DNA of 29,327 nt from positions 1 through 29,327 of IMG/VR virus record IMGVR_UViG_3300045009_000918. One strand, 5' to 3'. The position numbers and the translations under genes were made by a program. This document shows positions 1-19,928 of this stretch, in pieces; position 1 is the first letter of the stretch, and each line of letters opens with the position of its first letter. The stretch comes from a virus. Under the pieces are notes generated by a model. It was not told the DNA's origin, searched no databases, and was given only the letters and a program-made list of their open reading frames with translations.

Positions 1-937
1 TGCTTCCAGCGGCATGGCCGAAGGCTTTTGATTTCACTTGCCACCGTTGGAAATCAAAGTTGTCCAAGTCGTAAATTGGCGACTCGCCAAGGTAAATATT
101 CCTCGCAAGTCGCGTCCCGACAAGCATGGCCGCCCACTCAAGATACTCTGGAAGCATGAGATCCGGATCGGTCAGCTCGCTGCGCGTCAGAATGTTGTAG
201 GGGTGATCCCGCGAGGAGACGCTTGCATGCCCGACTTCTTCGTGCTCAAGATTTGACAATTGTATGTACCTGTCTATTATCTGCGACATGTCGGCAGTCA
301 GCGAGTGGTAAATCTTGCCCAGCGGGCGCGTCGGATTCTGGCTCTCTGCATCCATGTCCCTGACAATGTCGGGAAAGTATGGGATGCTGTTTTGCGACAA
401 CTGATTGAACTTTTCTGGTTGTGCCAGCGTGAGACATGGTGTCGTGAAGTACATTGAATCCGTATCTCGTGTTCCGAACACAACGGTTATTGACACATCG
501 TCGTAGGGGTGTTCGTCGCTTCCGAAGGTGTATTCGTTTGAGAAAATCGCACTCCAAACCCCGGCCTCGATATCTTGCACGTTCGGTTCGACCGTCGTAT
601 ATGCTTCTGTCGGAGGGTGGATGTATGTGGAAACCTGAATACCCGAGTCATTCAGGACCATTGCGCTGAAAATCAGGGGCTCGCGTATGTGCGGCCACGG
701 CACTTGGGTCTGGGTGGCCCGAATGGTGGTGTTCTGGGAAGTTGAATTGGTCAGTTTTAGCGAATATCGATCCGAGCGATAAAAGACATCGGTGACGACG
801 GTGTAGGAGGACGGAGAATCGGCAACCCATGTGGTTGTTTGTATCGTCTCGGGAGATATTTCACGACCATCTTTGTCGATCTGCCGCAATGACAAAGCAT
901 CGGACAGGAGGTTCCTCTGGGCAATTTTGAGTCTCAC
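1..937 (-). CDS. Baseplate protein, P2 gpI-like, with N-terminal beta domain (partial, runs off left edge)
   Basis: An open frame of 312 codons starts at a GTG that overlaps the stop of the upstream gpJ-like gene (GTGA) and continues past base 1 without a stop. The C-terminal part seen here contains LPEYLEWAAMLVGTRL, then an aromatic/basic stretch (FQRWQVKSKAFGHAAG). This resembles the gpI-type pattern in which a Leu-Pro-x-x-Leu-x-W segment precedes the region that attaches fibres to the baseplate wedge. Residues of about 25-165 are Thr/Ser/Val-rich with alternating hydrophobics and look like a beta-sandwich or carbohydrate-binding-like insertion, which small gpI proteins lack. Its place directly after gpJ fits a wedge-to-fibre adaptor. 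The start has only a weak ribosome site, so translation is probably coupled to gpJ. Family assignment is by weak motif plus position. Confidence 0.6.
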   Translation of the reverse strand, partial: MRLKIAQRNLLSDALSLRQIDKDGREISPETIQTTTWVADSPSSYTVVTDVFYRSDRYSLKLTNSTSQNTTIRATQTQVPWPHIREPLIFSAMVLNDSGIQVSTYIHPPTEAYTTVEPNVQDIEAGVWSAIFSNEYTFGSDEHPYDDVSITVVFGTRDTDSMYFTTPCLTLAQPEKFNQLSQNSIPYFPDIVRDMDAESQNPTRPLGKIYHSLTADMSQIIDRYIQLSNLEHEEVGHASVSSRDHPYNILTRSELTDPDLMLPEYLEWAAMLVGTRLARNIYLGESPIYDLDNFDFQRWQVKSKAFGHAAGS

Positions 938-2142
938 GCGTATCTCAATGCAACTGTTATGTCGCCAGCATCAAGTATCGGCAGACAACCTTTCCTGTTG
1001 AACAGGGCATCGCCGCTCGCGTTCGTCGTCGAGTCGGCGCACGTCAACGACAGGCTTTCGACATACACCACGCTCGGAATGGAGTTGACTTTTCCAATCA
1101 GGGCATTTTTTCGGATGGCGGGATCCGTGCAGGGGAAATTCAGCGGCGAAAGGTAGCTCGTCAGGATTGCTTTTACTGCGCTCATGGTCGATGAGAAATC
1201 GGCTGTTTCCTCAAGTATCGCCTCGACACTGACTGTCACGTCCAGCAGGTCAATGTCCTCGACAATCACCGACAGGCCGGCGAGCACCCGCTCCGAGATG
1301 TCCTCATAAAGGCGGATTTTCTCAAATTCGGACAATGATCGGCCGTTGCCGTAGACGAAAAGGGAAAGATAACCCGGAACATCCGCGGCCCCAATTGACC
1401 TGTTTGAGAGGGCATTGGTCAGGTCGTACGCCTTGACCCGCGATGCGAAGGAATAATTCGTCAGTGCATATGCCTCGATTTGTCTTGCCGTGCTTGAAGT
1501 TGTTGTCATTGACTGGAGATACGTGGCAAAACGAGACAGAAATTCAGCATCCCCCTCTTGTGTGCTCCCCTGGCTGAATCCGGATCGGGCTACGGCGCGG
1601 TCACTGACAAATTGAGAATTGAGAATTGTCAGAACAGCGCCCGCTGGAATCGTTCTGCGCTCCCCAATCTCGAGTGCGGACAGGGTCGTGCTGATGGATG
1701 GAAGTGGTGTCGGGGGATTGGCGACGAGGTCGGGGTCAACCGAATCAATGGTGGCGGCCAACGGCAACTCGTAGTACTCGCGGAGTGTCTCCGAACCGGA
1801 TACATAGACAAATTCAAAGACCGTTCCGGCCTCAAGGGTTCCGCCCGAATAGTCGAGCGCCTGTATTGTTACTGGAACGGTTGCGTACGTGCCATTGGTC
1901 CGAGTTGCGCCCATCAGGCTGGCAATTCCCTCGACTAGACGATTCGGAATCACATTGATGTGGTTGATGGCAATCGTGCTGATGAACGAGAATGCCTGAA
2001 TCATTCCATCCTCAATCGTCCCCGGCCGAATTGTCAGTTGCGGAACATTTTGCTGAAGTATGTCAAGTGCGGTCAGGTACAGCTCGGCGGGATCCTTGTC
2101 ATAAATGCGCAAATTGATGTACGGGCTGTAATCTACGGCCAT
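934..2142 (-). CDS. Baseplate J-like protein (gpJ / T4 gp6 type wedge)
   Basis: This 402-aa protein is typical in length for the baseplate J-like family, whose members dimerise to form the ring of the baseplate wedge in contractile tails. The N-terminus (PYINLRIYDKDPAELY) is followed by the helical segment expected at the start of J proteins. The middle contains an acidic loop and the stretch GSTQEGDAEFLSRFATYLQ, which resembles the GxDxEsdeelRxR region of the family. The C-terminal third (LAGLSVIVEDIDLLDVTVSVEA, then an AVKAILTSYLSPLNFP segment) matches the alternating beta/alpha end of J proteins. AAGG lies six bases before the ATG. It sits between a gp25-like and a gpI-like gene, the classical order of P2-type and Mu-type baseplate operons. 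Confidence 0.85.
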   Translation of the reverse strand: MAVDYSPYINLRIYDKDPAELYLTALDILQQNVPQLTIRPGTIEDGMIQAFSFISTIAINHINVIPNRLVEGIASLMGATRTNGTYATVPVTIQALDYSGGTLEAGTVFEFVYVSGSETLREYYELPLAATIDSVDPDLVANPPTPLPSISTTLSALEIGERRTIPAGAVLTILNSQFVSDRAVARSGFSQGSTQEGDAEFLSRFATYLQSMTTTSSTARQIEAYALTNYSFASRVKAYDLTNALSNRSIGAADVPGYLSLFVYGNGRSLSEFEKIRLYEDISERVLAGLSVIVEDIDLLDVTVSVEAILEETADFSSTMSAVKAILTSYLSPLNFPCTDPAIRKNALIGKVNSIPSVVYVESLSLTCADSTTNASGDALFNRKGCLPILDAGDITVALRYA

Positions 2143-2840: not shown

Positions 2841-4045
2841 GGTATGATCGGCCTTCTTCTCTTGCCCGTGTCGACCGGCAATGTTTGACCACGAGAAATG
2901 AACGGAACGAGCACATCCGGACCCACGGGATCGTCGGTGTTCGGGTACATTGGCCCGACCGGCAGATAGATTTTTTCTTTCGGTTTGCGTTCCGGCGTCT
3001 GGAATTGAATGCCGACTGGGTTGGGGGAACGCTCCTCGAACTCAACGGAAGTGACGAGGTAATAGCCGACGAATGTGGGTATGCCCCCGACGAAAACCGT
3101 CATGCCCGGTCGAATACCGACACCATTCGTCCTCTCGACCATCGCAGAACCCTGGGCTTCCATTATCGAATTGTCCGAGCGACTCATGGCCGGAAGTTTC
3201 TGCGTTTGGTAGTCCCTACCGACCTCTCCGGGAACCAATGGTATGTAGCGGCGGGTTACTCGTCGGTCCGTGGAATTCCCGGTTTCCTTGTCCTTGACAC
3301 TTGCTATGTACGTCAATGCATCCGGTCCCCACTTGTACATCAACCACTTCATTGAGGCGAAATACAAGACATTGTCGACCTCAAAGCACTTGAATTTCGC
3401 CTGCTGGGCCAGGTTCTGAATTACGTCCCACACCGAATCTGCCTCGTTTTCCCCGCTTGCTTTCGTGATTTTCTTGCTCTTTGATGTCTGCTCGGCGACC
3501 AACTTGAGGCCGTATTTCTTGCAGGCCGCCGCAACGTACGCGGTTCCGTTCCCTTCAATTACTTCTGGCTTTTTGTCGCGCTTCATTTGTTGGACCCGCT
3601 TGGGGCGGCACTTGATGGTCCAGATCGGAGAAATGCCCTGTTCGGCATCGCAGGATGTTTCGGCGACCTCCATCAATAGGTGGGTCAAATTGATTCCGGC
3701 GACCTTGGATTGGTCGTCAAACTCCGACTTCGCAATTGTTCTTGACAGGTACGTCACGTCGCGTCCAATGTTGAAATAGTTCCCGGCCGCGAATGATTCG
3801 ACGTCTTGTTTTTTGCCGAGAGAAGCCCGGTAATCTCGATCAATTACTTTCACGGTTATTTCCGTGACCAAATCCATGCCGTAGTTGACGGTGCACGAAA
3901 TTATCGAATCGTTGAGTTGCTCCTTGATCCTCGTCGGTATGTCGCCGAAAGTGACATTGAACATCTCTGTGCCACGAATCGGGAGTTCCCCTTGTGTGAA
4001 TGCCGTTGGCTGGCCGCCGTAGTATCGTGTTGCGTCGCTCATCAT
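2837..4045 (-). CDS. Baseplate hub protein, gp27/gpD-like
   Basis: This roughly 402-aa protein lies between the large hub-associated protein and the OB-fold spike gene, the usual place of the trimeric hub that joins tube and spike. Recognisable gpD/gp27-type features are an early segment of alternating strands (IISCTVNYGMDLVTEITVKV), a middle LysM-like linker region (YVAAACKKYGLKLVAEQ) followed by a helix with DSVWDVIQNLAQQAKFKCF, which is the stretch typical of gpD-like proteins, and a C-terminal beta section (GIRPGMTVFVGGIPTFVGYY) that ends in a proline-rich tail. Two ATGs (4045 and 4042) follow GAGG; the first overlaps the upstream stop as TGATG, the second has the better spacing. Family-level confidence is good, exact start uncertain by one codon. 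Confidence 0.75.
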   Translation of the reverse strand: MMSDATRYYGGQPTAFTQGELPIRGTEMFNVTFGDIPTRIKEQLNDSIISCTVNYGMDLVTEITVKVIDRDYRASLGKKQDVESFAAGNYFNIGRDVTYLSRTIAKSEFDDQSKVAGINLTHLLMEVAETSCDAEQGISPIWTIKCRPKRVQQMKRDKKPEVIEGNGTAYVAAACKKYGLKLVAEQTSKSKKITKASGENEADSVWDVIQNLAQQAKFKCFEVDNVLYFASMKWLMYKWGPDALTYIASVKDKETGNSTDRRVTRRYIPLVPGEVGRDYQTQKLPAMSRSDNSIMEAQGSAMVERTNGVGIRPGMTVFVGGIPTFVGYYLVTSVEFEERSPNPVGIQFQTPERKPKEKIYLPVGPMYPNTDDPVGPDVLVPFISRGQTLPVDTGKRRRPIIP

Positions 4046-6981
4046 CAACCTCGGCTGACTTTGACCCCGGTCGTCAAGAGCAGGTACTCCTTGAATTTTT
4101 CTTCCGTTATTTTCGGTATGTCATCGCATTTTTTCTTGCATGGCTTGATTGGCGGCATCTGGACAATGCTCACGGTCTCAATCGGTATTTCTTGGAGCGT
4201 CATGCTGCATGTCGCCCGCGAAATTTGGTTCGGTACGACGCCCGCTGCTCTCTTTGCGTCGCTGGAAGTCCTTTGAACTGCCGTGACGGAGAACTCCGCT
4301 ATGACGAACTCAATGCCGCGTCCCTGGGAAAGGGTCGGCCAACGAACCTCTTCGCGCATGAATTTGTCCATGTTGAGGAATGTGACCGGATAGGGGGTCT
4401 GGGCCATTTCTCTCAATTTCCTCAGTTGTTCCTCACAGCTGTAATACAGGCCGAACCCAGACTGGCTCTCAAAAGTTCGGTCCACGACATCAAAGTTGAA
4501 GCTGATTTTGAGCAACTGGAATCCCGTCCAGTCAACTATCGGATAGTTCCCCGTCCTGGCAATTTCTGTCCACTGCGTTCCGATTCCCGTGTAGTTGACC
4601 TCTCGGGGAACGAATGGGAATACGAATCTTCTGGGTTTCGGTAGTACTGCGCTCCCGGCAGGGCCATTGCTGAACACGTCGTACGTCTGGACAAGTTCTG
4701 GCTGGTCGGCAATCGTCGCACCCGACTCCCTGATGCCCTGTCTGTAACCGGGCAACCCGCGTATCACGTCTATTTTTATCGTCGTGTTTTGATTCTGGTC
4801 ACGCGCAGAATTCGTTGAGTTGCTCGCGGTTCCGCCATCATCCCTTGTTCTCGGCTTCGGGGTGAGACTCGCGGCGAATTTCGTGAGAGAGATGTAGAGC
4901 GGATCCTGCTTCACCGCCGTGACGGCGGCAGTCCTGGACAGGCCGCTGGTCTGCATGAGCGCGACAACTTTCGCCTCGAGCAATTGCTGGAAAAATATTT
5001 CTTGTAGCGTTTGTAGGGGTGCGCCGAGATTCACCTGTTGCCGGAGGAATTGCTCCAGTTGTTGCGAGGTGAGCGATTGGACCGATGCTCCCGAAACGAG
5101 CTTTGATGTTGCATCGGTAATCAGTTTGCGCCAGTCCTTTGGTGGGCCGGTGTACGTTCCGGTACCGGCCCCCGGTGTCGGGGTGCTCGGGTTGCTTGGG
5201 TTCGTTCCCGCCCCAATCCAAGGGGAGTAATAATAATTACCCGAATTAACTTGACTCTCCGTCCACCCAGTGTAGGAACTCGCAACGGAAACACCCTCGA
5301 CATTCCGCAGGCTTATATCAATCGTTCTGGTGATTGTCGATGGAATGTATTGCTTTGGGCCAGCAGAGTAACTCCCAATCGTAAAAGCCGTGAACCTCGA
5401 GGTATCGAGCCTTCTGTTGACGGCATTGGTTGCCTCAATCTCAAGGTTCGTTTGATAATCTTCGAGATCGCCGCTCGAGAAACCGATATCCGAATTCTCC
5501 GTGGACTTGAGAAATTTCCCGAAGTGAAGCGATCCCACAAATGGGGCGGCGGACGTGAATTCGCTCTGATAGCTGCTGGTAGCTCCGGTGAATATAAACC
5601 CCGCGCCCTGACTCCGGCGTTGTTGCACGGGCAACACGTACCAATACTTTGCCCTGGCCGCATTCAGGTCGTTGGTACTCGTAGAGGCTGGTGCATATCC
5701 ACTGACCCATGACTCCTGATTCGGTGGCGGAATATTTGCGGCTTGCGGCAAATTAAAGCCGTCAACGACAGCAGTTCGCAAAAACCCCGATCCTCTGTTC
5801 AATGGTTGCGGTGTCCATGTGTACGCGTGCTGCGGCTGGGTGCCAAATTTGTAGGATGGTTTTACGACATTCGTGCCTACGACGATTTTTTTCCCGTTGG
5901 TCTCGGAGAATTGGGCCTTTCCGAAGGTCTCTGCGGCATTTTCAATGTGGGTCATAATTGTTTCGCCATCTTCCTCCGAAAAGTACAGGGCTTCATACGT
6001 TGACCCAATTTTTCCGACGATTCCGGTGTACACAAGTTTTGTTGCGCCGCTGCCGCCCTGAACACCAGAGACAGAAATCAACTTGCCGATTTCCACTTTT
6101 GGAGCAGTACCGATGGGGAGTGCGCTTGCGAGTTTGAGACTTCCCTGACCCGAGAGGGTTACTGGTTCTTGGTCAATCTTCGGTGCACTTTGGGCATCTT
6201 TCGGAATGGACGATTGCAGTTTTGGCACTGGTTCGGAAGAATCATCTTGCAGGTAATAAATGGTGTTCGGATCGTCCTTTATCGACCCAAGATTCACACC
6301 CCTGATACCATTGCTTGCGTACGAGTTGATTGCCGTGGTAGCGAAGGCCGCGCTTTTTGATTTGGAATATGTGTCTTTCGGTTTTGCGTCAAGATCGACC
6401 CCTACATGGGCAAGTTTGAAAGGTTCGTCAGTCGGAACACGATACCAATCGAACAGCACTCCGTAGTCCGTGTTCTCACCGGACTTCCACCTGAGCCACA
6501 ACATCTGATATGGTCCCATACCGGCGGCAGAAGTAACGTTTCCCAGCGTTGACCCAGCACCCTCGAAAGCTTTACCGCTTATGGAAGCGGCGCCCAAGAA
6601 CGGACAACACGGATCATCGGGGGTATAACCTTTCTTTTCTGTGACATAGTCCTTGAAACGTTTGTCGCCGCACGGGGCATACACCTCTCGGTACACGCGC
6701 ATCCATGTGCTCGCCCTGAATGTTTCCGTAAATCCGACATAGCCGACGAGGTTTACTTTTTTCATGTAATTGGTCGCCTGAACCGGCAGGCTGACCCCTA
6801 CCGTGGGTGCATTCTTCACATTGTCGTCCCGGAAACCATACGCCACAACGCGTTGTTCGCTATTGCCGGTAAACGAACCGAACATCGTGGCGGACGGAGA
6901 ACCTGGGAGGGTTTCACCCGCTGTCTTTGACTGATTCGGGGCACCGAGTTTCGCCTTGATGATTTCTTGGGACGTGCTCAT
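4045..6981 (-). CDS. Large tail/baseplate protein with XkdP/gp53-like C-terminal domain
   Basis: This 978-aa protein is coupled to the tape measure gene by an ATGA overlap. Residues about 784-940 (FVFPFVPREVNYTGIG, then WTEIARTGNYPIVDW and LLKISFNFDV, followed by a helix and TPYPVTFL) look like the domain of XkdP and related tail proteins that binds the tube end just above the hub. Those proteins normally carry a C-terminal LysM domain; none is evident here. Residues about 620-720 are Gln/Leu-rich and helical (LTSQQLEQFLRQQVN), and the N-terminal 600 residues are rich in Gly, Ser, Thr and aromatic residues, probably beta structure, with a cysteine cluster (DDPCCPF) near residue 125. The N-terminal region is unrecognised. 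Position between tape measure and hub supports a distal tail / baseplate hub role. Confidence 0.6.
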   Translation of the reverse strand: MSTSQEIIKAKLGAPNQSKTAGETLPGSPSATMFGSFTGNSEQRVVAYGFRDDNVKNAPTVGVSLPVQATNYMKKVNLVGYVGFTETFRASTWMRVYREVYAPCGDKRFKDYVTEKKGYTPDDPCCPFLGAASISGKAFEGAGSTLGNVTSAAGMGPYQMLWLRWKSGENTDYGVLFDWYRVPTDEPFKLAHVGVDLDAKPKDTYSKSKSAAFATTAINSYASNGIRGVNLGSIKDDPNTIYYLQDDSSEPVPKLQSSIPKDAQSAPKIDQEPVTLSGQGSLKLASALPIGTAPKVEIGKLISVSGVQGGSGATKLVYTGIVGKIGSTYEALYFSEEDGETIMTHIENAAETFGKAQFSETNGKKIVVGTNVVKPSYKFGTQPQHAYTWTPQPLNRGSGFLRTAVVDGFNLPQAANIPPPNQESWVSGYAPASTSTNDLNAARAKYWYVLPVQQRRSQGAGFIFTGATSSYQSEFTSAAPFVGSLHFGKFLKSTENSDIGFSSGDLEDYQTNLEIEATNAVNRRLDTSRFTAFTIGSYSAGPKQYIPSTITRTIDISLRNVEGVSVASSYTGWTESQVNSGNYYYSPWIGAGTNPSNPSTPTPGAGTGTYTGPPKDWRKLITDATSKLVSGASVQSLTSQQLEQFLRQQVNLGAPLQTLQEIFFQQLLEAKVVALMQTSGLSRTAAVTAVKQDPLYISLTKFAASLTPKPRTRDDGGTASNSTNSARDQNQNTTIKIDVIRGLPGYRQGIRESGATIADQPELVQTYDVFSNGPAGSAVLPKPRRFVFPFVPREVNYTGIGTQWTEIARTGNYPIVDWTGFQLLKISFNFDVVDRTFESQSGFGLYYSCEEQLRKLREMAQTPYPVTFLNMDKFMREEVRWPTLSQGRGIEFVIAEFSVTAVQRTSSDAKRAAGVVPNQISRATCSMTLQEIPIETVSIVQMPPIKPCKKKCDDIPKITEEKFKEYLLLTTGVKVSRG

Positions 6982-9900
6982 CGACGTTGCCTCTCGTTCT
7001 CGAGTGCGAGTTTCATCTTGCGGACGGCCTGATCGGCAACCTCGGATGCGTTCGTGTTTCCGTAAATCACTTGGGATATTGTAATACCGTTGCCGCCGCC
7101 CGATTCGCCGCTCGGTGTCGCAACCGGCGCCATTATTCTGGGCGATACGGCATCGCCGTAGGGCCCCGGTCCCGGAACGACATGAAGGTGGCGGCCGGCA
7201 TTGCGGCCGTGGAATTCGGCGAAGCCGCCGCTGTTGCGGACGAGTCTTTGGTAACTCCCGAGGTTTTGGCCGACGAGGTCGTACGCCCGACCCGTCACAT
7301 GATCCGAGTTGATCGACCCCAATCCGTAGGTTCTGTAGGCAGAGGTGACCGTGCGATTGCCGGTCAGTGCTCCGTCCAGTGCGGCGTGCCTGCTCATTGT
7401 CTGGCTGAGCCGAGAAGCCGTCGTGTCACCGATTCCCTTGCCTCTCGGGCTCGATGTGTCCGAGTTCGCTGCCACGAATTTTATGAATTCGTCCGTCATC
7501 CATTCGGGCTTCGTGCTGTCGCGAGTGTCGAAGAACGTGCCGAACATGTCGATGATCGTCGTGTATGTCGTCTTGAGTTCATCGGGCAGGGAGTCCAGTG
7601 ATATGGTCAGCTCATCATTGTCTTGGACGGCACGAATACCCAACTGGCTCTCGCGGATGCCGTACTTGCCCAGCATGGAGACAAACTGATCCCTGGTCAG
7701 TGTGTCAATGTCCACTTGGTTGAACAACGTCCCAGCTTCGATGTCGCTTATCAATTGTTTCGCCGCGTCCGCGTCAAGCCCAGAAATGGCAGTGCCCAAC
7801 TTGTTCGCATCAATTTGGAAACGATCGGCGGATTTTGATTGAAAGAGTTGGGCATTGACCTGACTGGCGAGCCGTCTGGTGCCCTCGTCAATTTGCTTGT
7901 CCACCATATCCTGATATGCGACACCAACCGGGGACGACTGGAACAGTTTCTCCATTCCGAAGAATGGACTCGTAATATCGCCCTCTTTCCTGCCGAATTC
8001 CGAGCCATTCATGCCGAACATTCGTTGTATTTCAATCAAACCCTGAAGCGCGCCACCCACGTAGTTGAACATGTTGGGGGTGAAACTGTAGAGAAACTCA
8101 GAGAAGTCGCTGTCGCTAATATTTCCATCCACGGAATCGTACAAATCCCTGAACGACCGTGCCTGTTCGTCAATTATCTCTGGGTCTGCAATCAGGTTCA
8201 TCTTCTTCTTGAAATCCTCGAGGCCCTTGAGGGCGATATCCATCTGCATGCCCTTGAGTTGCTCGCGTGTTTGGACGACGCTCACGCCGAGCTTCTGCAC
8301 TATGTCATTGAAGTCGGCCGTTGCATCGTAGAGATTCACGCCGAGTTCCATCGCCAGCAACTCGACTTCTTGTTCGGATTTGCCGGTCATCATGGTCAGT
8401 TCTTTGAGGCGCTTCGAGTAGATGTCGGTCAGGGCATTCATTGCAGTCTGCCGTTCTTCGACTTTCTTGATTACCTTGACGGTCTCTTCCGGTCGTTTCT
8501 TCATCTTTTTAACATCGTCAGGGGTCAGGCCGTACAGTTGGCTGTTTTTCGTCAAGTAATCGGTCATTTCCGTGCCCGATGCACCGCTCCTGAACATGTC
8601 AAGAATGACATCCTGTTGCTGGGCTATGCGCCCGCCCTTTGATGCGGCCTTGGCAATTTGGGACTTGCCGACACCGCCGCTTGCCATCATTTCTCGCTGA
8701 ATTGTGGTCAGGTTGTCGGTGATAATCCTGTCAAAGACTGCCTCAAATGCCTCTTTGGCCTGTTTCTTTTCCTCCTTGATTTTGTTCACTCTCCCCATGA
8801 TTCCCCCAACGGCGGCGCCGATGATTGCGCCGGCGGCCGTTCCGAATCCCGGGGCAATCATTGATCCGATGGCCGCGCCCGCGCCGGCACCAGCGACTGC
8901 CCCACCCGCCACGGTCTTCGCCGTCAGGGCGGTGCCGCCGAGGCCGATTGCGAGACCCGCAAGGGGGTTCATCATTCCGACCATCGCACCGGCGCTCAGG
9001 AATCCCTTTGCTTCTTCCGACACCATTCCCGACTCGGCGAGCAACCCGAGCCCGAGCATCGTTCCCATTGTTCCCGTTGCAGAACCCTGGAACCCTTTGC
9101 GATTTTCGTTGCCCAAAAACATTGCTCCGAGGCGACTCTTTCTTGATTCGCCGGCGAACAAACGCATGTTCTGAATGTGCCTAGCAACATTCAATTTGCT
9201 CATCCCGCGCTGCATCGGACCGGCCAAAGCCGTGTTCGGAGCAAGGAAGTTGTTGTAGAATTTGCTGTTTTTGAAGCGACCTAGGAGAGAATTGGGATCG
9301 TATGTCCCGGGGCCGTACGCGGCCGTCGAGGTCAACTGCCATGCCTTGTATGCTTTTGTTCCTCTCCCGTACGGTTTGCCCGTCTTGGGATTGATTGGCG
9401 GGCCTTCTGGTCCGAGATATTTGCTTTTGCGAATCAACCGGTCCCTGTACCTGTCCGCCGCGCGACCAATGAAACCCCCGACTCCTCGGTTTCCTCCGAA
9501 AATCCTGTCCATTATGTTCTTGGGTCTGCCGTCGGTGGCGTAACCAGTTGCGCCGTGTCGCTGCCCCTCGCCGATTGCCCGGGCCAGTTGCTCGCGTCTC
9601 GTTATTATTCGTCCGGTCGCATCGACGGTCTTGTATCTTCCCCTCCCCACTCGCTGCGATGGATCGACTCTCACGCCGCTTCTCTTTTCGATGCCGACCC
9701 TCCGTGCGGACGTGTTGGCCGGGCCCGTCCCCCTTCCGCCGAACATGTACTCGACGTTCCTGCCACGGACCCTTTGGGTGAGAATTTCCTGTCCTCTGTT
9801 CGGTCCGGAGGTAATAAGGTGACCACCGTTCGGTCCCGCATTTTGACGAACATTCCCTCCGTACGTTTGCCGCAGCCTTCTTCTTTCATCGGGAGTAAGT

Positions 9901-11840
9901 CGCGTGCCGCCCCCCCTGGATGCCACGCCGGCACCCGACCCCCTCGATGCCAGGCCGGCACCGGCACCGGCACCAGCACCGCGACCGGGCGGGACCATGT
10001 ACGGACCTCTGTGGGCGGTGCTTGGTCCGGTCCTAATTTGATTTGATCCTCTGACGAGACCAGAACTGCCACCGACCCCCTTCGGGCCGTATTGTGCAAT
10101 GGGTTTGCCGTTTATGTAGATGACACCGGCCCTGATGTTCATGTTGGCGACTTCGCGAATGCCGGACATGCTTTGAGTACGAGTGAAATACCCCTTGGTG
10201 TTTTTCATTCCCTTTGCGAGACCCATAAGCATCATGAAGGACCCCACACCGCCGAGACCGGTCCCACCGGTCAGCTTCATGAAGCCCCCCAGGAAGCTCG
10301 TGAACAGTTCGACGAGCTGAGTGAAACCCTTAATCACCTGGTTGATGAAGGGGAGTGCCTCAAAGAACAGCTTTCTTGCCTCGCTGAAATACTCCATCAC
10401 CTTCGCCAGAAGTTCGCCTATGTTCCTGCCGAACTCAAGCAGCGCCGGCTCGTTGGCCAACAACTCATTGTTGAATGAGTACATCTTTTCTTGTATTTGG
10501 TCAAACACGGGCAGCCACGCCTGCTTGAAAATTCCCTCGACGACACGAGCACCTTCGATAAATGGTTCAAGGGCTTTCGTCATTCTCTCCCATCCCTTGG
10601 TGAAGTTTTCCCACCACTCGGCGATGCGAGTGAATATGCCGACCGAGCCGGGGAGGAAATCTCGAAGCGTCCTGGTGACGAAATCCGCAATTTTGTCGAC
10701 AGTATCGGAAATCTTGTCAATGAAGCCGCTATTCCCGTACTCAGCAATTAGCCCAGACAGTCTCTTGACTGCCGTGGTGATTATGCCGAAGACTTCATGG
10801 GCTTCTTTTTTGATCGGTCTGATGAACTGCTGGCCGAAGTCGGCGAACATTCCCCTCAGCATGTTCAGTTGACCCTTGAGGGTGCTAATCAGCGTCCCGG
10901 AAACCGCGGCGAACTGGCCGTCGACGCCGCCGAGCTTCGCCAACTCCCCGGACCTGATTGCCGCAGTGAGCGCCTCCTTGGTCTTGCCCTCCTTGCCGGC
11001 ATCTTTCTCGTATGCTTCGAGTGCTGTCTTCATTTGCGGGCTGAATTTTTTGCCGGCATCAACCACTTCGGAGTAGCTCTTCTTGGTGTCCTGAAGCGTC
11101 GCAATTAGCTGGCCCGCCTGCTCCGTTCCCTTTTTGATGTCCATTCCGGCACTTGCGAAGTCCATGAGACCCTTGAGGGTTTGCTTCGATGCGGCGGTGA
11201 ACTTGCTGTTCTTTGAGACCTCCCCGTACACTGCGACGAGATTTTCCACGCCGACAGCGGCGAGATCCGCATCCGTCGTCAGGGCACGCATTTGCACCCT
11301 TGTTTGGTTGAGCGAAGAGCCGAATTCCTTGGCTTGCCCACGGCCCGTAAACGCGTACATCGCCGCCTGTTGTTCCCTGATGGCCGCCGCCACCGTCGCG
11401 GCGGCAATGGCGACGCCCGCCATGCCGCTTGCGACCATTTTCATCATGCCTCGGTATGCCTTCATGAGGAGAGTACCTGCGGCGAAAAGGAGGTGAATCG
11501 CCACCATTGCCGCGCCCATTGCGGCCATCTCAAGAATGACGCCCTTGAAGGACAGGGTAAGGAACTTCTGAAGTCCCATGCCCATGCCTTTGATCATTTT
11601 GTCAAAGGAGTCAAAGCGCTTCTTGTATCCGCGACTCACCTTGTTGAATTCATCCGTCCCGCGACGGAGCGCCCTGCTGCTCGCGCGAGAGGCGAGACCC
11701 TCTTCTCTGTCCGCCCTCCTTCTTGCCCTGCTGTCTCTGGAACGCGCCCCGGCGAGGCGCTCCAACCTGCGTCGCGTGCGGTCAATGGCTCTGTCGTCGG
11801 AATTGACCTCTATATGTATTACGACGCGCTCGTCGGGCAT
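6978..11840 (-). CDS. Tape measure protein with C-terminal M15-type peptidase domain
   Basis: At 1620 aa this is the longest gene and lies directly after the frameshifted chaperone pair, the canonical place of the tape measure protein, which sets tail length and is ejected with the DNA. It starts with a basic helical region (1-90) and has two hydrophobic segments (about 99-125 and 131-155), a Gly/Arg-rich low-complexity part (about 600-660), a glycine-zipper stretch (about 965-1015) and a long helical region. Near the end, residues 1512-1521 (SDHVTGRAYD) followed by E1542 and H1551/H1553 reproduce the zinc-binding and catalytic pattern of M15 D-Ala-D-Ala peptidases (His, Asp, Glu, His). That suggests peptidoglycan cleavage during DNA entry. 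CGGAG precedes the ATG by five bases. Role by position and size is strong; activity is inferred. Confidence 0.9.
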   Translation of the reverse strand: MPDERVVIHIEVNSDDRAIDRTRRRLERLAGARSRDSRARRRADREEGLASRASSRALRRGTDEFNKVSRGYKKRFDSFDKMIKGMGMGLQKFLTLSFKGVILEMAAMGAAMVAIHLLFAAGTLLMKAYRGMMKMVASGMAGVAIAAATVAAAIREQQAAMYAFTGRGQAKEFGSSLNQTRVQMRALTTDADLAAVGVENLVAVYGEVSKNSKFTAASKQTLKGLMDFASAGMDIKKGTEQAGQLIATLQDTKKSYSEVVDAGKKFSPQMKTALEAYEKDAGKEGKTKEALTAAIRSGELAKLGGVDGQFAAVSGTLISTLKGQLNMLRGMFADFGQQFIRPIKKEAHEVFGIITTAVKRLSGLIAEYGNSGFIDKISDTVDKIADFVTRTLRDFLPGSVGIFTRIAEWWENFTKGWERMTKALEPFIEGARVVEGIFKQAWLPVFDQIQEKMYSFNNELLANEPALLEFGRNIGELLAKVMEYFSEARKLFFEALPFINQVIKGFTQLVELFTSFLGGFMKLTGGTGLGGVGSFMMLMGLAKGMKNTKGYFTRTQSMSGIREVANMNIRAGVIYINGKPIAQYGPKGVGGSSGLVRGSNQIRTGPSTAHRGPYMVPPGRGAGAGAGAGLASRGSGAGVASRGGGTRLTPDERRRLRQTYGGNVRQNAGPNGGHLITSGPNRGQEILTQRVRGRNVEYMFGGRGTGPANTSARRVGIEKRSGVRVDPSQRVGRGRYKTVDATGRIITRREQLARAIGEGQRHGATGYATDGRPKNIMDRIFGGNRGVGGFIGRAADRYRDRLIRKSKYLGPEGPPINPKTGKPYGRGTKAYKAWQLTSTAAYGPGTYDPNSLLGRFKNSKFYNNFLAPNTALAGPMQRGMSKLNVARHIQNMRLFAGESRKSRLGAMFLGNENRKGFQGSATGTMGTMLGLGLLAESGMVSEEAKGFLSAGAMVGMMNPLAGLAIGLGGTALTAKTVAGGAVAGAGAGAAIGSMIAPGFGTAAGAIIGAAVGGIMGRVNKIKEEKKQAKEAFEAVFDRIITDNLTTIQREMMASGGVGKSQIAKAASKGGRIAQQQDVILDMFRSGASGTEMTDYLTKNSQLYGLTPDDVKKMKKRPEETVKVIKKVEERQTAMNALTDIYSKRLKELTMMTGKSEQEVELLAMELGVNLYDATADFNDIVQKLGVSVVQTREQLKGMQMDIALKGLEDFKKKMNLIADPEIIDEQARSFRDLYDSVDGNISDSDFSEFLYSFTPNMFNYVGGALQGLIEIQRMFGMNGSEFGRKEGDITSPFFGMEKLFQSSPVGVAYQDMVDKQIDEGTRRLASQVNAQLFQSKSADRFQIDANKLGTAISGLDADAAKQLISDIEAGTLFNQVDIDTLTRDQFVSMLGKYGIRESQLGIRAVQDNDELTISLDSLPDELKTTYTTIIDMFGTFFDTRDSTKPEWMTDEFIKFVAANSDTSSPRGKGIGDTTASRLSQTMSRHAALDGALTGNRTVTSAYRTYGLGSINSDHVTGRAYDLVGQNLGSYQRLVRNSGGFAEFHGRNAGRHLHVVPGPGPYGDAVSPRIMAPVATPSGESGGGNGITISQVIYGNTNASEVADQAVRKMKLALENERQRR
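9913..9980. repeat. Low-complexity direct repeats inside the tape measure gene
   Basis: Two imperfect copies of a roughly 25-base unit (around 9913-9936 and 9938-9962, each ending GCCGGCACC) run into three tandem GGCACC hexamers (9957-9974) and one AGCACC variant. On the minus strand they encode Gly-Ala and Ala-Ser-Arg-Gly repeats near residue 630. Such tracts can expand or contract by slippage and probably form a flexible linker between tape measure segments. Confidence 0.6.
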
Positions 11841-11879: not shown

Positions 11880-12592
11880 TTACTTGCGCATTTCCTTCTC
11901 GGCGGCAGCTCGATCCTGCTCTATTACTTTAGCACATGCCATACGGATGACCCACTCTTCATCCGTGCAGTCGAGCAGGCGAATGGGGTCGGTGCCCCAC
12001 AATTCGCCGAGTCTTGCGACCGATTTGATTATTGGTTCTTCGATTAGTTCGTCGAAGACTTCTTCGTAGGGTCCTCGGCAGGCTCAATCGTGTCGCCGAA
12101 CCCAGCCGCATCAAGGATTGCCAGAGCCGCTGCCTCCACGTGCGGATCGAGTCCGAAGAAGGCGCGAACAGCATCCGGAACCGGTCGTGTCGTTTTGGTC
12201 ATGTTGAGAATTTGGTCGTGGGCGAAGTTGAGTGCGAAGCCGTTGTCATCGAAGACTTCTTCATCGCTGAACACGATGCCCTGCGTGGTGTGACCAATCA
12301 CGAAAGTGGCAAACTTGGTCGCATCCATGCCGTTCTTGGTGTCCTCGCCCGCCTCTTTGCGCCACTTGCGCACCTGCGCCTGCGTGATGTTGGGGCTGAT
12401 TCTGAGCGTCACGCGCGGACGTTCCGGGACATTGATGAAGATATCCTTTCGGCTTACCTTCTCTGCGATGGTCGCAGACAGTTTCTCGAGAAGTGTTTCC
12501 TGCTTCTCTGGCTGTGGCGCCCGAGCGACTGCCCTGTTTTCCTTTGACTTTGCTTCGTCGGCGAGCTCGCCAGAATATAGTTGTTCGGCCAT
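11880..12592 (-). CDS. Tail assembly chaperone, -1 frameshift fusion (gpGT-type)
   Basis: The frame -1 to the upstream chaperone stays open from just after a TGA at 12084-12086 to TAA at 11880-11882. It has no ATG or GTG near its beginning, so it must be entered by ribosomal slippage. The slip window is 12083-12047. The best single site is the CCC-T at 12071-12068, where the Pro codon CCT can re-pair with CCC. Read this way the fusion has about 237 aa: 175 from the upstream frame, then 62 beginning YEEVFDELIEEP and including a DPIRLLDCTDEEWVIRMACAKVIEQ-type helix. Tail assembly chaperones of long-tailed phages conserve exactly this two-frame arrangement ahead of the tape measure gene. The fusion is inferred; the open -1 frame and its acidic/helical character are seen directly. 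The TAA lies 39 bases before the tape measure start. Confidence 0.75.
12044..12592 (-). CDS. Tail assembly chaperone, upstream frame (gpG-type)
   Basis: This 182-aa acidic protein begins with a charged, probably flexible N-terminus and contains ERPRVTLRISPNITQAQVRKWRKEA near the middle, then a section with FATFVIGHTTQGIVF and a helical C-terminus (VPDAVRAFFGLDPHVEAAALAILDAAG). Its position between tube and tape measure, plus the overlapping -1 frame, matches the gpG product of the lambda-like G/GT pair, which binds the tape measure during tail assembly and is absent from the virion. AAGGA lies about six bases before the ATG. The stop TAA at 12044 ends the unshifted product. Confidence 0.8.
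   Translation of the reverse strand: MAEQLYSGELADEAKSKENRAVARAPQPEKQETLLEKLSATIAEKVSRKDIFINVPERPRVTLRISPNITQAQVRKWRKEAGEDTKNGMDATKFATFVIGHTTQGIVFSDEEVFDDNGFALNFAHDQILNMTKTTRPVPDAVRAFFGLDPHVEAAALAILDAAGFGDTIEPAEDPTKKSSTN
12047..12083 (-). promoter_or_regulatory. Probable programmed -1 frameshift window
   Basis: The window is bounded upstream by TGA in the -1 frame (12084-12086) and downstream by TAA in the zero frame (12044-12046). No canonical X-XXY-YYZ heptamer is present. The only reasonable tRNA re-pairing is CCT to CCC at 12071-12068. No strong downstream stem was recognised by eye. Confidence 0.55.
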
Positions 12593-12714: not shown

Positions 12715-13251
12715 TTACGCTCGCGTCGTGGACGTGGTGGCAGTCTGGTTCGACGGCGGGTTCACATCGCTCACCGAGAAGGTGAGGGCGAATGTGCTTG
12801 GAGCCCCGGAAGACGAATCGCCATCCGGCTCGGTGAGTCCGACGAGGAGGGCTCTCGGGTACTGGCGGTCGTTGGAGGCACTGGTGAGACCGCAATTGTA
12901 TGTTTGAATCGTGATGTCGTAGAAACCAACACCGACGAACTGCCTTGCCTTGCGAATGGCGGCGCCGATGCCATTGGTGGTAAGGTCGTCATCGTAGTGG
13001 GCCGTGAGGGTGATGTCGCCGATTTCGGAGGGGGCGCACAGCACCGTCGGCTTGGACTTGCCACCCTCGTAAATCTTCTCCACGGAGGCAGTAATTTCCC
13101 CTCCCGAGACCTGGGCGAACTGGAAATTGACCTGACCACCGACAGTGAATGCCGGCGGTGTCTCAGTTTTGCCGCCAATCGTGAAGCTTGTGTTGCCGTC
13201 CTTGGTGGGCGTGATATAGGCCAGTACTTGGCGTTGCGCTATCTTTGCCAT
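12715..13251 (-). CDS. Tail tube protein
   Basis: This 178-aa protein immediately follows the sheath gene and precedes the tail assembly chaperone, the conserved place of the tube protein of contractile tails. The sequence is beta-rich with many Thr/Gly residues and no long hydrophobic stretch. It has a central acidic loop (HYDDDLTTNGIG) and a C-terminal segment FALTFSVSDVNPPSN followed by a Thr-rich tail, typical of tube/major tail proteins. A strong GGAGGA lies five bases before the ATG, in keeping with high expression of a structural subunit. The assignment rests on order, size and composition rather than a signature motif. Confidence 0.75.
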   Translation of the reverse strand: MAKIAQRQVLAYITPTKDGNTSFTIGGKTETPPAFTVGGQVNFQFAQVSGGEITASVEKIYEGGKSKPTVLCAPSEIGDITLTAHYDDDLTTNGIGAAIRKARQFVGVGFYDITIQTYNCGLTSASNDRQYPRALLVGLTEPDGDSSSGAPSTFALTFSVSDVNPPSNQTATTSTTRA

Positions 13252-13261: not shown

Positions 13262-14731
13262 TTATGCGGTTACCGATGCTGTCAGGCTGGACTTAATTAT
13301 CTCAACCTCTATTCGATCGCCGATGCTCGAGACTCTCACGCCCACCTTGGCTTTCACCCTGCCGTCGGCGAGATCATCCGATGGATTCAGTCTAGCATCA
13401 CAACGCACGGTGTATCCGTAATCAATTCTTTCCCCGTTGTTGGCGAACGCCTCAAAAAGTGCTCCCGAGAGCCTGTATGCCTCAAGGACCGAGATGAGTC
13501 TCGCTTCTACGGCCGCGAACACCATGCCGCGACCATCAATCGCCGTGAACACGAGCGGTTCGATGGCTCGGTATGAATCCGTGACGATTGAGTTGACGGT
13601 GTCCTGCGAGGTGATGTACCTGAAGTTCGTGGTGTCCTGAGACAGCGATCTTGCACCGTAGATTCGGACGGTGTTGCTGATGATCCGAATTGCATTGATG
13701 CACTCGTCATCGAGCGCATTCCCGTTCGCTCGGTCAATGTCCGTGACGACGCCATTGACGAAGGATGCCTGCGAATTCGTGCCAGCGTACGGGATGTGCG
13801 AGCCGTTGCTGTTCACAATTGCGGATCGCTTCGCCGCAACGTAGCCGTCCGGCGGGAGCATGCGGTTGACGCCGTTGACCGCGGTCGGTGCAAACACCCA
13901 TGGGTAGTACAGCGCCGCATGCTCAAGGTTTTGCCCGTCGGCAATCGCAGTCTGGGCAAAGGACTTTATTGAGGATATGGTCGCGTTTGATTCGCCGTGC
14001 AGAATGGCGATCCTGTTGTACTCATTCGCATGGGCAATCAGGGCAGAGTAAACCGTCGCAGAGGACGACTCTGGGCACGAAACTGCGCCAGTACCGAGTG
14101 CATCATTGAACAGTTCTAGTGCCGTGGCGTAGTCGGCATCCACAACCGCCGCGCGATCGTCGTCTCCGGCACTGAGATTGGAGGGGTTTGCCATCACGGC
14201 CGGGTTGCTGGTGTCTGCTCCGAGCTCCGCGGTGATGTACTTGCTTGCTTCGGCATGGAGGTTTATCTTGCCGACCGCAATCTCGCGCGAAGTGCAATTG
14301 CCGGTCGTGGCAATTTGTTCGCCATCGAAGAAAATTTTGATGGCGAAAGTTCCGGCAATCGTGCCAGACACGACCTGAGCGGAAACATCCGTGCTCCAAT
14401 CACCGGGACCGTTGGCCGTCAGAACGATTGTCGCATTGCCATCGGCATCGTCAAGTTCGAGCGAACCAACATCTGCGGCTCCGCCGACGACCCTGCCGAC
14501 GTAACACTGAGTGCCGCCTTCCTCAAAGAAGCACTCAATCGTCGGGTGGAGAAGGCTGTACGAGGCGAATCCGCCGTAGGTGTTTTCAAATTCCTCGAGG
14601 CTGGAGACGCGAATTGCCTCGCCTGTCGGGCCACGTTCGGCCAAGCCGACGAAAAATGCCTGTGAGGCTTCGTTGAACAGGGGCACCGAAGGACCGGTGC
14701 GAACAGAAGTAGAAATGATTACGCCTGGCAT
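13262..14731 (-). CDS. Tail sheath protein
   Basis: This 489-aa protein has the sheath signature at its N-terminus (PGVIISTSVRTGPSV, then FFVGLAERGPTGEAI and the SSLEEFENTYGG segment), the strand that begins domain-swapped sheath packing. The middle holds more variable insertion domains, including the ADYATALELFNDALG helix and the NEYNRIAILHGES nucleotide-binding-like strand. The C-terminal region (YGYTVRCDARLNPSDD, then VKAKVGVRVSSIGDRIEVEI) is the conserved core that interlocks neighbouring subunits in T4 gp18-like sheaths. GAGG lies four bases upstream of the ATG. It is followed ten bases later by the tube gene, the standard sheath-tube pair. Contraction of this sheath makes the phage a myovirus. 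Confidence 0.92.
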   Translation of the reverse strand: MPGVIISTSVRTGPSVPLFNEASQAFFVGLAERGPTGEAIRVSSLEEFENTYGGFASYSLLHPTIECFFEEGGTQCYVGRVVGGAADVGSLELDDADGNATIVLTANGPGDWSTDVSAQVVSGTIAGTFAIKIFFDGEQIATTGNCTSREIAVGKINLHAEASKYITAELGADTSNPAVMANPSNLSAGDDDRAAVVDADYATALELFNDALGTGAVSCPESSSATVYSALIAHANEYNRIAILHGESNATISSIKSFAQTAIADGQNLEHAALYYPWVFAPTAVNGVNRMLPPDGYVAAKRSAIVNSNGSHIPYAGTNSQASFVNGVVTDIDRANGNALDDECINAIRIISNTVRIYGARSLSQDTTNFRYITSQDTVNSIVTDSYRAIEPLVFTAIDGRGMVFAAVEARLISVLEAYRLSGALFEAFANNGERIDYGYTVRCDARLNPSDDLADGRVKAKVGVRVSSIGDRIEVEIIKSSLTASVTA

Positions 14732-17178: not shown

Positions 17179-17724
17179 CTATCTGTCGTCGTTCGGTGGC
17201 ATTTCTATGGCAGGCTCATTGACCTTCGTGGCCGACTCAACGGGCACCCATGCTCGCGAATAGAGATGTTCCCTGATTGCACGATGCTTGACAATCGTCC
17301 CATCAAGCAGGAGCTCAAACTCGTCCATCGTCAGGTTGAGGGCTTCGCAAAGGAAATCTTCTGTTGTCGCACCCGAAAGTAGGAGCCTTCTGACAAGGGA
17401 GGAAAGTTTCTTGGATACGACAGAACCCCTGCCCCTGTTGAGTTGGACATGGAGAATCATTGCCTCCGCCTCGGTGCACTGGACAACAATGATGGGAACG
17501 GTCTCCCCAATTGCCTCGCGTACTGCCTGGTTGTTCATTGCCAACAGGCATCGTTCGTGACCATCAATAATCGTCAGTCCTGCTTCTCTCACAATTATCG
17601 GCGACAGTATTCCGTGCCTGTTCATTGAGCGCGCCAGCACCGCCAAGTCTGGCGAGAGCATGTAGGTCGTTCGCCACGGTGCGAATGACAGACTGCTCGG
17701 TTTTGCGTGCGTTGTGTCATTCAT
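17179..17724 (-). CDS. ParB/Srx-fold protein, second of the cassette
   Basis: This 181-aa protein contains a ParB-like nuclease fold: a helix followed by GILSPIIVREAG (about 38-49), the IIDGHERCLLAM strand-loop-helix (52-63) matching the G-x-x-R-x-x-A box of ParB/IbrB proteins, then VPIIVVQCTEAEAMILHVQLNRGR (77-100), which resembles the E-x-Q-R / A-x-N-x-x-R block. The C-terminal half has a short helix-turn-helix-like part (TTEDFLCEALNLTMDEFELL) and an acidic tail. ParB-like proteins bind CTP and DNA; IbrB-type versions occur beside PAPS-reductase-like IbrA. Its start overlaps the stop of the PAPS-reductase-like gene by eight bases. Fold assignment is good; biochemical role unknown. Confidence 0.75.
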   Translation of the reverse strand: MNDTTHAKPSSLSFAPWRTTYMLSPDLAVLARSMNRHGILSPIIVREAGLTIIDGHERCLLAMNNQAVREAIGETVPIIVVQCTEAEAMILHVQLNRGRGSVVSKKLSSLVRRLLLSGATTEDFLCEALNLTMDEFELLLDGTIVKHRAIREHLYSRAWVPVESATKVNEPAIEMPPNDDR

Positions 17725-18841
17725 TGGTTACTCCTGCATCCTTGATGATTCTCCCCGTCTTGGTGCCTGGACCCGCTGGGTTTGCAGAGGTGACATGTAT
17801 CGAGTTGAGCAGAAGCGTTCGCACCAGCCAATGTATCGGGTACGAAACCGGATCCAGAGCCATTTTCTTTTTGAACGTGGACACGTATCGGCGAGCGGCG
17901 GATTGCATTGTTGTCCCAATCATGAAGTCCGATATGAATTGGCTGACCCCATTGAGTCCATCATGGGAGTATGTCTCGACGATTGCATCTGAATCAAAGT
18001 CCTTGCCGAGCCTCCTTTGGGCATCAATTCTCGGGAATACTCGCACCAATTGATCGTAGAACTCTGGCTCGGTTGCCACCACATCGCCAAGTCTGCGTAT
18101 CGCTATTGAGTGGAGCGGAATGCCGACCCTCGTGTTTGAGCCAGTCATTTCGGCGGCATCGTAATACTCCGAGTATTCCCCCCCGGAGTCGGTGATGAAC
18201 TTGAACACATCGTTCGTCTGCCAGTCGTAAATGACTTTTGCGAACTTGAGTGGGAGACCACGCTTGACGCCGAACGGGGTGACGATGTAATTCTCGTGGA
18301 TTTTTTGCACGCAGGATCGGTAGCGAATCATTGACTCGTTCGCCCTCACCCCCGTAATGAATGCCGTACGACCCCTCTTCCCCTGCATCGTGTAGTAATC
18401 GATTGTTTCTCTCAGTGGCCTGTCGTGATCCAGTCCGAAGTGCATTGCGTTGATTGCGAAGTTCGGCATCGGCCTGACGAGACGACCTTCTCGTTGTCTT
18501 TTCCCACTCCACAGCAGGGCCGTCTCGCGGCGCCCGAGAATCCATATTTCTGCCCCGTACGGCAAGCAGTACCACTCCATGTCAACCCACGGGTAGTTGC
18601 GAACTTTCATTACATAGTCCACCACCATCGGGCTGACCATTTCCTCGTCGCGGAAAATCACCTTTACTGGTCCAAGCCCACGCTCCTCGTGGACTTCCTT
18701 CGCCAGGTGCAGAATCGCCGTCGAGTCTTTTCCGCCAGAGAACTGGACGCACACGGTGTCAAATGTGTCGTACACATGGCGAATCCGTGCCCTGGCGGCA
18801 TCAACGCAGGAGACATCAAGGAACAACCGTTGGCGCGGCAT
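17717..18841 (-). CDS. PAPS-reductase-like (IbrA/DUF3440 type) ATP-pyrophosphatase-fold protein
   Basis: This 374-aa protein has the nucleotide-binding P-loop of PP-loop ATPases, SGGKDS at residues 35-40, then VKVIFRDEE (about 59-67), a WYCLPYG stretch (90-96) and TGVRANES (163-170) followed by R/Y residues, and IYDWQTNDVFKFI (204-216). This order resembles IbrA/DUF3440 proteins more than assimilatory PAPS reductases, which are shorter and end with an ECGIH motif that is not seen here. DndC of the phosphorothioation system shares the fold but is accompanied by other Dnd genes, which are absent. The gene is flanked on both sides by ParB-like genes with stop/start overlaps (TAATG upstream), so the three probably work together. 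The chemistry is unknown. Confidence 0.8.
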   Translation of the reverse strand: MPRQRLFLDVSCVDAARARIRHVYDTFDTVCVQFSGGKDSTAILHLAKEVHEERGLGPVKVIFRDEEMVSPMVVDYVMKVRNYPWVDMEWYCLPYGAEIWILGRRETALLWSGKRQREGRLVRPMPNFAINAMHFGLDHDRPLRETIDYYTMQGKRGRTAFITGVRANESMIRYRSCVQKIHENYIVTPFGVKRGLPLKFAKVIYDWQTNDVFKFITDSGGEYSEYYDAAEMTGSNTRVGIPLHSIAIRRLGDVVATEPEFYDQLVRVFPRIDAQRRLGKDFDSDAIVETYSHDGLNGVSQFISDFMIGTTMQSAARRYVSTFKKKMALDPVSYPIHWLVRTLLLNSIHVTSANPAGPGTKTGRIIKDAGVTNE

Positions 18842-19575
18842 TAGAAGTCAATGTTCTTTTCCAGGTAGCACATCAATTTTTCTGCAGTCGTGTTGCCCCC
18901 AATTTCCGGGTTTGAGCGAAGCCACTTTATGAAGTCGTACCACCTGCTCTGCTGTTCCACTCTGTCAAAAACAATCGTGTACTGCACGACCGCCTGAGGT
19001 TTCTTCGTGCCCGGTATCGCCGTGCTTCCGAGCGCCGCCACGTTCATTTCGTCGCCTTTGGGCACGACCAGCGGAGTCGACTGATCCTGCGTCTCAACGA
19101 GCACCGGGGGGAGGAATTCGTTTGATGTGAGTATTTCGCTTTCGGCATTTGAGACCGAGTTCTCGATGGTGGCCATGTCGAACTCATCTATTCCGAGATT
19201 GTTCATGAGTTCGGAGTACTCGCTACCAACCTCGCCGATCATTTGTACGAGCAAATCTTCGTCGTACCCGCCGAGGTCCGCCGTCCGGTTGTCGGCGTAC
19301 GCAAAGGCAGTCGCTTTCTTTTTGTCTGCATCGAGCACCGTACAGGCGATGGAATCCCACCCGAGACGCTTCGCCGCCTCGTACTGGTGATTCCCCGCAA
19401 TAATTAGGTACCTCCCATCGCCATTTTCTGTGACAACGATTGGTTTGACTTGGCCGAATTCTCTGTACGAGGCGGCGATTGCATCCACGTCGCCGCGCCT
19501 CGGATTGTCCTTGAGGGGCACGAGACTTCCAATGGGCATTGCCAGCGATGCCAAGGATTCGTGGATTCCGTTCAC
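18841..19575 (-). CDS. ParB-like protein with unusual C-terminal domain, first of the cassette
   Basis: The likely start is the GTG at 19575, which overlaps the preceding stop as GTGA and has AGGG seven bases upstream; reading farther upstream would overlap a neighbour by about 100 bases. The 244-aa product has the ParB domain: LKDNPRRGDVDAIAASYREFG (about 21-41), KPIVVTENGDGRYLIIAGNHQYEAAKRLG (44-72) and AFAYADNRTADLGGYDEDLL (90-109). The last is also found in ParB domains linked to DNA methylases. A Glu/Thr-rich linker follows, then residues 195-244 (VVQYTIVFDRVEQQ, then WYDFIKWLR) form a separate small domain that was not recognised. It is coupled by TAATG to the PAPS-reductase-like gene. 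No nuclease activity can be inferred. Confidence 0.8.
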   Translation of the reverse strand: MNGIHESLASLAMPIGSLVPLKDNPRRGDVDAIAASYREFGQVKPIVVTENGDGRYLIIAGNHQYEAAKRLGWDSIACTVLDADKKKATAFAYADNRTADLGGYDEDLLVQMIGEVGSEYSELMNNLGIDEFDMATIENSVSNAESEILTSNEFLPPVLVETQDQSTPLVVPKGDEMNVAALGSTAIPGTKKPQAVVQYTIVFDRVEQQSRWYDFIKWLRSNPEIGGNTTAEKLMCYLEKNIDF

Positions 19576-19928
19576 ACCTGAGCCCTGACGTTCGCATTGA
19601 GCGTCCGGAGGGCATCCACCTCTGTCCTGAGGGTCAGGAGTTTCTCTCTCTTTGCCTTCACGAGTGCCTCGGCACACTTGTAATCAAAATCCATGTCGGC
19701 GAGCTTGTAGTCTGCCCATGCTTCTCGTTCACGGATTGAACCCTTTGCCGACAGGTACTCCTTTGCCCACTCTCCCTTGAGTCTGGATTCCTTCTTGGCA
19801 CAGTCTTCTGCGAGACTCTCGAATGCCTCGGTGTGGTGCTCGAGTTCGTCAAGCAGCATCAGTATTCGCCCCTCAATTTCCACCTGACTGATTGGCGAAG
19901 TCCTCGCAACAATTCCCACCGTCGTCAC
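19572..19928 (-). CDS. Small helical/coiled-coil protein, unknown
   Basis: The preferred start is GTG at 19928, which overlaps the RuvC-like stop as GTGA and has AAGGA eight bases upstream. The product is 118 aa and almost wholly helical with alternating Lys/Glu (about 20-118), including REREAWADYKLADMDFDYK and a final heptad-rich stretch (LRTEVDALRTLNANVRA). Short phage coiled-coil proteins of this look often lie among recombination genes, but no specific family was recognised. A longer reading from 19967 overlaps its neighbour by 43 bases and lacks a ribosome site. Confidence 0.6.
   Translation of the reverse strand: MTTVGIVARTSPISQVEIEGRILMLLDELEHHTEAFESLAEDCAKKESRLKGEWAKEYLSAKGSIREREAWADYKLADMDFDYKCAEALVKAKREKLLTLRTEVDALRTLNANVRAQV

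Follow-up and report, generated by a model that had tools for sequence, protein, structure and literature searches.

A predicted M15/Hedgehog-fold domain, probably a peptidoglycan peptidase, near the C-terminus of the tape measure protein in a myophage lineage of Actinobacteria

The tape measure protein (TMP) encoded in the window, i.e., the whole stretch of 29,327 nucleotides of viral DNA that was analyzed, carries near its C-terminus a domain with a predicted M15/Hedgehog fold (residues 1461–1565). Based on the identity of the gene, the predicted fold, the conserved residues, the constant C-terminal place of the domain, and the actinobacterial lineage of the virus, we consider it probable that this domain is a zinc peptidase that cuts the stem peptide of the host peptidoglycan at entry. 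A likely entry enzyme is named in this way for a well-populated actinobacterial myophage lineage whose TMP has no relative in the phage records searched, and the domain offers an ordinary, testable example of an M15-fold site that lacks the usual acid.

The tape measure gene and its tail module

The tail genes are located on the minus strand of the window and comprise the following features, including the relevant segments of the TMP:

13262–14731, minus strand: tail sheath protein of a contractile tail (phrog_23)
12715–13251, minus strand: tail tube protein (phrog_5102)
12044–12592, minus strand: tail assembly chaperone, adjoining the TMP gene upstream (phrog_5088)
6978–11840, minus strand: TMP, 1620 aa (open reading frame; PHROG family phrog_167, tape measure, E = 5.5e-08)
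8787–8906, minus strand: glycine-zipper-like stretch of the TMP, residues 979–1018 (sub-threshold PF13488, 23.3 bits against a cut-off of 25)
7146–7460, minus strand: predicted M15/Hedgehog-fold domain, TMP residues 1461–1565 (AlphaFold2 model, fold matches, sub-threshold PF08291)
6981–7145, minus strand: C-terminal tail of the TMP, residues 1566–1620 (predicted helix)
934–2142, minus strand: baseplate J-like protein (PF04865, 35.8 bits; phrog_6)

The 1620-residue protein is a TMP, as a preliminary description of the sequence had proposed: it is encoded by a long gene with chaperone, tail tube, and contractile sheath genes upstream and baseplate genes downstream, and it matches a tape measure profile. 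Searches against 50,697 phage records returned no match for the TMP (E limit 1e-3) and none for the domain (E limit 1). The preliminary description had placed the domain at 6978–7420, a range that covers residues from about 1474 to the stop codon; the domain starts slightly earlier, at about residue 1461 (window position 7460). H1553 is followed by 67 residues. Within the C-terminal tail, a helix was predicted at positions 158–179 of the 180-residue model.

Several other genes of the window are worth recording. A gene for a 978-aa protein (4045–6981, minus strand) shows a 4-base overlap with the TMP stop codon, and this protein was without relative in Pfam (E up to 1), PHROG (E up to 0.01), and the phage records. 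A PAPS-reductase-like gene is flanked by two ParB-like genes (17179–19677, minus strand), and genes for RuvC-like, PD-(D/E)XK nuclease, and Rad52-like proteins are clustered (19925–22809, minus strand). The portal and prohead protease genes are located on the plus strand (24911–29325); genes for the tail, terminase, and recombination lie on the other strand.

Conservation of the domain and lineage of the virus

Profile searches pointed to the M15 type weakly. PF08291 (Peptidase_M15_3) was matched in the window with 15.2–16.5 bits, under the curated cut-off of 23.2, over profile positions 25–93 of 108; it was absent from a Pfam search with the full-length TMP and appeared only when the C-terminal piece, or the family over the window, was used. 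At E-values up to 1, the profile was found in 32 of 45 family members including the window (best 0.0011), and among 19 large related records it reached an E-value of 0.001 or better in seven and the cut-off in none. The PHROG endolysin family phrog_894 gave weak matches (best E = 0.028) to 26 of the 45 members and none to the window. In total, these members matched 22 PHROG families at E-values up to 1, with none for the window, and the two best, phrog_36520 (five members, 6.6e-05) and phrog_32669 (nine members, 7e-05), are unnamed. No M15 family of NCBIfam was found in 80 domain members. When a profile of 80 domain rows was compared to the PDB, the sole chain at E-values up to 10 was the M15 enzyme 1lbu, whose E-value of 0.18 is not significant by itself. 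A phmmer search of the PDB with the TMP C-terminus yielded no match, and hmmsearch of the PDB with alignment A1 yielded only 2cbz, which is unrelated and weak (E = 1.5). A fragment of 1lbu matched 308 phage records, ten of these covering at least 80% of the fragment.

The motif S-x-H-x2-G-x-A-x-D was contained in none of 5000 shuffles of the TMP, and the looser pattern H-x6-D...HxH alone in six of 5000. Conservation among relatives carries more weight as evidence than the motif does. We aligned 100 rows, i.e., 99 unique relatives and the window, in which R1503, H1514, D1521, E1542, H1544, R1550, H1551, and H1553 are all invariant. As the loci were mostly recruited by peptide patterns such as GGFAEFH, AYDL, and RHLHVVP, these columns are biased in the 100-row set, and we therefore complemented it by a second recruitment that used the TMP N-terminus alone (best 80 of 241 and best 80 of 364 confirmed relatives in two scans). 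This recovered 139 open reading frames with the TMP N-terminus, 85 of them with their own stop codon inside the locus, of which 52 are unique. The domain was present in all 52 unique complete proteins, as were H1514, D1521, E1542, H1544, R1550, H1551, and H1553, and R1503 was in register in 51 of them; among the 54 frames cut at the 3' end, the domain was visible in two. Neither loss nor swap of the domain was seen among the relatives recruited by the N-terminus: it is intact in L323, L253 ends at a contig edge, and the divergent L337 still holds the residues H, D, E, H, R, H, and H. In 54 unique TMPs of this set with the domain, median identity to the window was 73% for the domain and 35–47% for four other TMP segments, making the domain the best conserved of the five segments tested. 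Its place is constant as well, with 49–70 residues behind it in 178 of 178 complete open reading frames. The family is large; 380 stretches passed confirmation in a single scan, and 80 of them were retained.

We assign the virus to a lineage of actinobacterial myophages. The best-ranked relatives of its sheath and portal proteins are from Brevibacterium phage Cantare and Gordonia phages, followed at lower ranks by relatives from other hosts (Salinibacter and Vibrio for the portal, cyanophages for the sheath). Furthermore, all 19 large related virus records (G001–G019, the window left out) carry one to three WhiB-like genes each, and among 14 control genomes a match was obtained in Corynebacterium only. 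The domain also occurs on two bacterial contigs (8.5 and 4.5 kb) from bins named Bacteroidetes and proteobacterium, which at face value speak against an actinobacterial host; we read these short contigs as mis-binned phage contigs.

Predicted fold, active site, and proposed role

An AlphaFold2 model of the domain reached a pLDDT of 83.2 and a pTM of 0.76. Foldseek comparison of two models with the PDB placed Hedgehog N-domains on top in both cases (probability up to 0.99, E-value never below 0.015); these domains keep the same fold, and we know of no peptidase activity for them. In VIA-align, 1lbu ranked first for the first model (Z 7.0, 90 aligned, 3.8 Å), followed by Hedgehog N-domains at ranks 2–31 and, below these, VldE, PLY500, LysECD7, ChiX, and LysB4. 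For the second model, ranks 1–30 were all Hedgehog (Z 5.9–7.4), followed by PLY500, VanY, LysECD7, LysB4, ChiX, LdcB, VanXY, VldE, and VanX; 1lbu was not among the best 50 rows, which excludes nothing. All Z-scores of the two models were under 8 (top 7.4), the first unrelated rows had 5.9 and 5.7, and the M15 enzymes except 1lbu had 4.8–5.8, at or under these unrelated rows. The fold match therefore rests on 1lbu and Hedgehog with a modest margin; it supports the fold well and the family weakly, and the choice between peptidase and Hedgehog falls to the motif. In BFVD, just two matches reached an E-value of 0.001, both close phage proteins, one of which carries the name tape measure protein (56% identity); ranks 7 and 8 are named M15A peptidases (E = 0.03–0.05). 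The models thus point to the M15/Hedgehog (LAS) fold of clan MD, and they suggest the M15 type more clearly than the profile searches do.

The candidate active-site residues are the following:

7332–7334, minus strand: R1503, Arg of TSxxR, candidate transition-state Arg (100/100 rows; 51/52 complete proteins recruited by the N-terminus)
7278–7307, minus strand: SDHVTGRAYD, residues 1512–1521, with candidate zinc ligands H1514 and D1521 (alignment with S-x-H-x2-G-x-A-x-D of 1lbu)
7209–7217, minus strand: E1542-F-H1544, invariant Glu and His, E1542 being a candidate catalytic acid (conservation; aligned with a Glu of 1lbu)
7182–7193, minus strand: R1550-H1551-L1552-H1553, HxH, with H1553 as candidate third zinc ligand (conservation and alignment)

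The positions given before for SDHVTGRAYD, E1542, and H1553 were verified, and those of H1544 and H1551 as well. The HMMER alignment with 1lbu brings H-x6-D, GFxE, and HxH into register, with E1542 opposite a Glu of 1lbu; R1503 is invariant, yet the Arg of 1lbu is placed four positions off. Judged by these residues, the zinc ligands of clan MD (His-x6-Asp ... His) are predicted to be present as H1514, D1521, and H1553. To our knowledge, an Asp or Glu three residues ahead of the last zinc His is general in M15. Asp occupies this position in 1lbu as well as in 11 of 11 motif 3 sequences (see below), and the domain lacks such an acid there, with Arg (R1550) in 100 of 100 family rows. By register, E1542 is consequently not the canonical M15 acid. 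The preliminary description had read these residues as the His-Asp-Glu-His set of M15 peptidases, which is borne out with respect to their conservation and has to be revised with respect to the Glu, as E1542 is off the acid position held by R1550. In the DSSP assignment of the model, E1542 is located on the strand directly preceding that of H1553; together with its alignment to the 1lbu Glu, this makes it a candidate replacement, and it could act as catalytic acid in place of the usual one. We tentatively suggest, at somewhat less than even confidence, that the family forms a separate branch of clan MD which has become fixed in the TMPs of actinobacterial myophages from a large, uncultured lineage. 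In this branch, an invariant Arg would have taken the place of the usual acid, whose role would have passed to E1542 one strand earlier, giving a fixed E-x-H-G-x4-R-H-L-H site. Two findings on which the preliminary description had let its claim depend were both in its favor: M15/Hedgehog structures were matched, at modest scores, and the ligands are kept by close relatives (100 of 100 rows, and 52 of 52 proteins recruited by the N-terminus).

The Arg at the acid position also bears on whether the domain is catalytic at all. The D372A exchange at this position is reported to abolish the activity of VldE (PMC11667670), and Hedgehog N-domains occupy most of the top structural ranks, as would be expected of a zinc-binding, non-catalytic domain of the same fold that binds peptidoglycan, plugs the tail tip, or acts there as a folding unit. 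We regard such a domain as unlikely, since the remaining polar candidates of the active site, including HxH and R1503, are invariant, the domain is better conserved than the other TMP segments, and the invariant E1542 could act as acid.

Most likely, then, the TMP carries a peptidoglycan peptidase at its leading end. According to a review, phages of Gram-positive bacteria account for nearly all virion endopeptidases (PMC6116005). In a description of phage JBD30, opening of the tip releases the TMP with its C-terminal end ahead (PMC11445458), and by analogy the C-terminus most likely leaves first here. H1514, D1521, and H1553 would coordinate zinc, and R1503, H1551, and possibly E1542 would assist catalysis. 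In the virion, the TMP would lie within the tail tube, its C-terminus being close to the baseplate. Once the sheath contracts and the tip opens, the C-terminal end would come out first, and the emerging domain would cut a stem-peptide bond in the peptidoglycan of the actinobacterial host, which could ease the passage of the tube or the TMP to the membrane.

To judge from their entry titles, the M15 enzymes matched by structure have peptidoglycan or its D-Ala precursors as substrates, and the C-terminal region of the Cantare TMP holds another peptidase family, M23, which a shared target in the wall explains more easily. Both points argue against a peptidase that would mature the TMP or another tail protein during assembly and leave the cell wall alone; the position of the domain near the protein end would suit such a function, and proteolytic processing of TMPs is said to be quite common (PMC4205034), but we consider it highly improbable. 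A chance motif within a coiled-coil protein that has no such domain, for which the sub-threshold Pfam score might be cited, is ruled out by the shuffles, the conservation in relatives, and the confident domain model.

Comparison with known tape measure peptidases

A clan MD domain within a TMP is already known as a kind. The preliminary description had stated that lytic domains embedded in TMPs are known and are usually lysozyme or M23; the first part holds, with TM4 motif 3, T5, and the M23 domain of Cantare as precedents, and to the second it has to be added that the M15 type (clan MD) is not new. VldE is reported as an L-Ala/D-Glu endopeptidase of clan MD and a motif 3 enzyme, its domain being named after motif 3 of the TMP of mycobacteriophage TM4 (PMC11667670). 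The TM4 motif 3 proteins are reported to hydrolyse peptidoglycan, an activity described as dispensable for viability and as an aid to the infection of stationary cells (PMC1796659). We found relatives of TM4 motif 3 in 755 phage records; among 60 of them drawn from all parts of the ranking, the annotation reads tape measure in 38, hypothetical in 16, and endolysin in five, and one is unannotated. The TM4 tape measure gene gp17 itself (L214, 1185–4874) is labelled 'endolysin' in its RefSeq record. The domain in the window resembles motif 3 in H-x2-G-x-A-x-D and H-x-H and in its occurrence within an actinophage TMP. However, the signature N-H-x-D-H-x-H of 11 of 11 motif 3 sequences contrasts with R-H-L-H plus E-x-H-G in the window family, and more than 300 residues follow motif 3 in TM4, compared to 49–70 here. 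As the signature is absent and the profile comparison by hhalign was not significant (16 columns aligned, probability 4.8), we rejected a filing under motif 3.

With 1LBU, the zinc DD-peptidase of Streptomyces albus G (M15), the family shares H-x6-D, GFxE, and HxH, and this enzyme ranks first for the first model; the two differ at the position of R1550, which is Asp in 1LBU. PF08291 is matched in part of the profile, but below the family cut-off. We file the family as a variant that has a predicted M15/Hedgehog fold and Arg for the usual acid and that falls outside the present definitions of PF08291 and motif 3. No description that we recognised as that of the window's domain family was found in the literature covered, which takes in only a minority of subscription journals. 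The TMP of T5 (pb2) is likened by its published description, in which a zinc carboxypeptidase is reported in its C-terminal part (PMC11445458); T5 differs in being a siphophage of a Gram-negative host.

A further comparison is offered by Brevibacterium phage Cantare, a related isolate whose sheath (37.5%) and portal (42.9%) resemble those of the window and whose TMP also carries a peptidase in its C-terminal region. This peptidase is of the M23 type, at residues 1165–1262 of 1366 and with about 100 residues behind it; a Pfam search of the TMPs of the related isolates GMA6 and ChisanaKitsune revealed no peptidase. The gene after the TMP matches LysM in Cantare, GMA6, and ChisanaKitsune (just below the cut-off in both Gordonia phages). 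An M23 domain in Cantare and a domain of probable M15 type here, both in the TMP C-terminal region, fit the idea of wall enzymes as exchangeable modules of TMPs.
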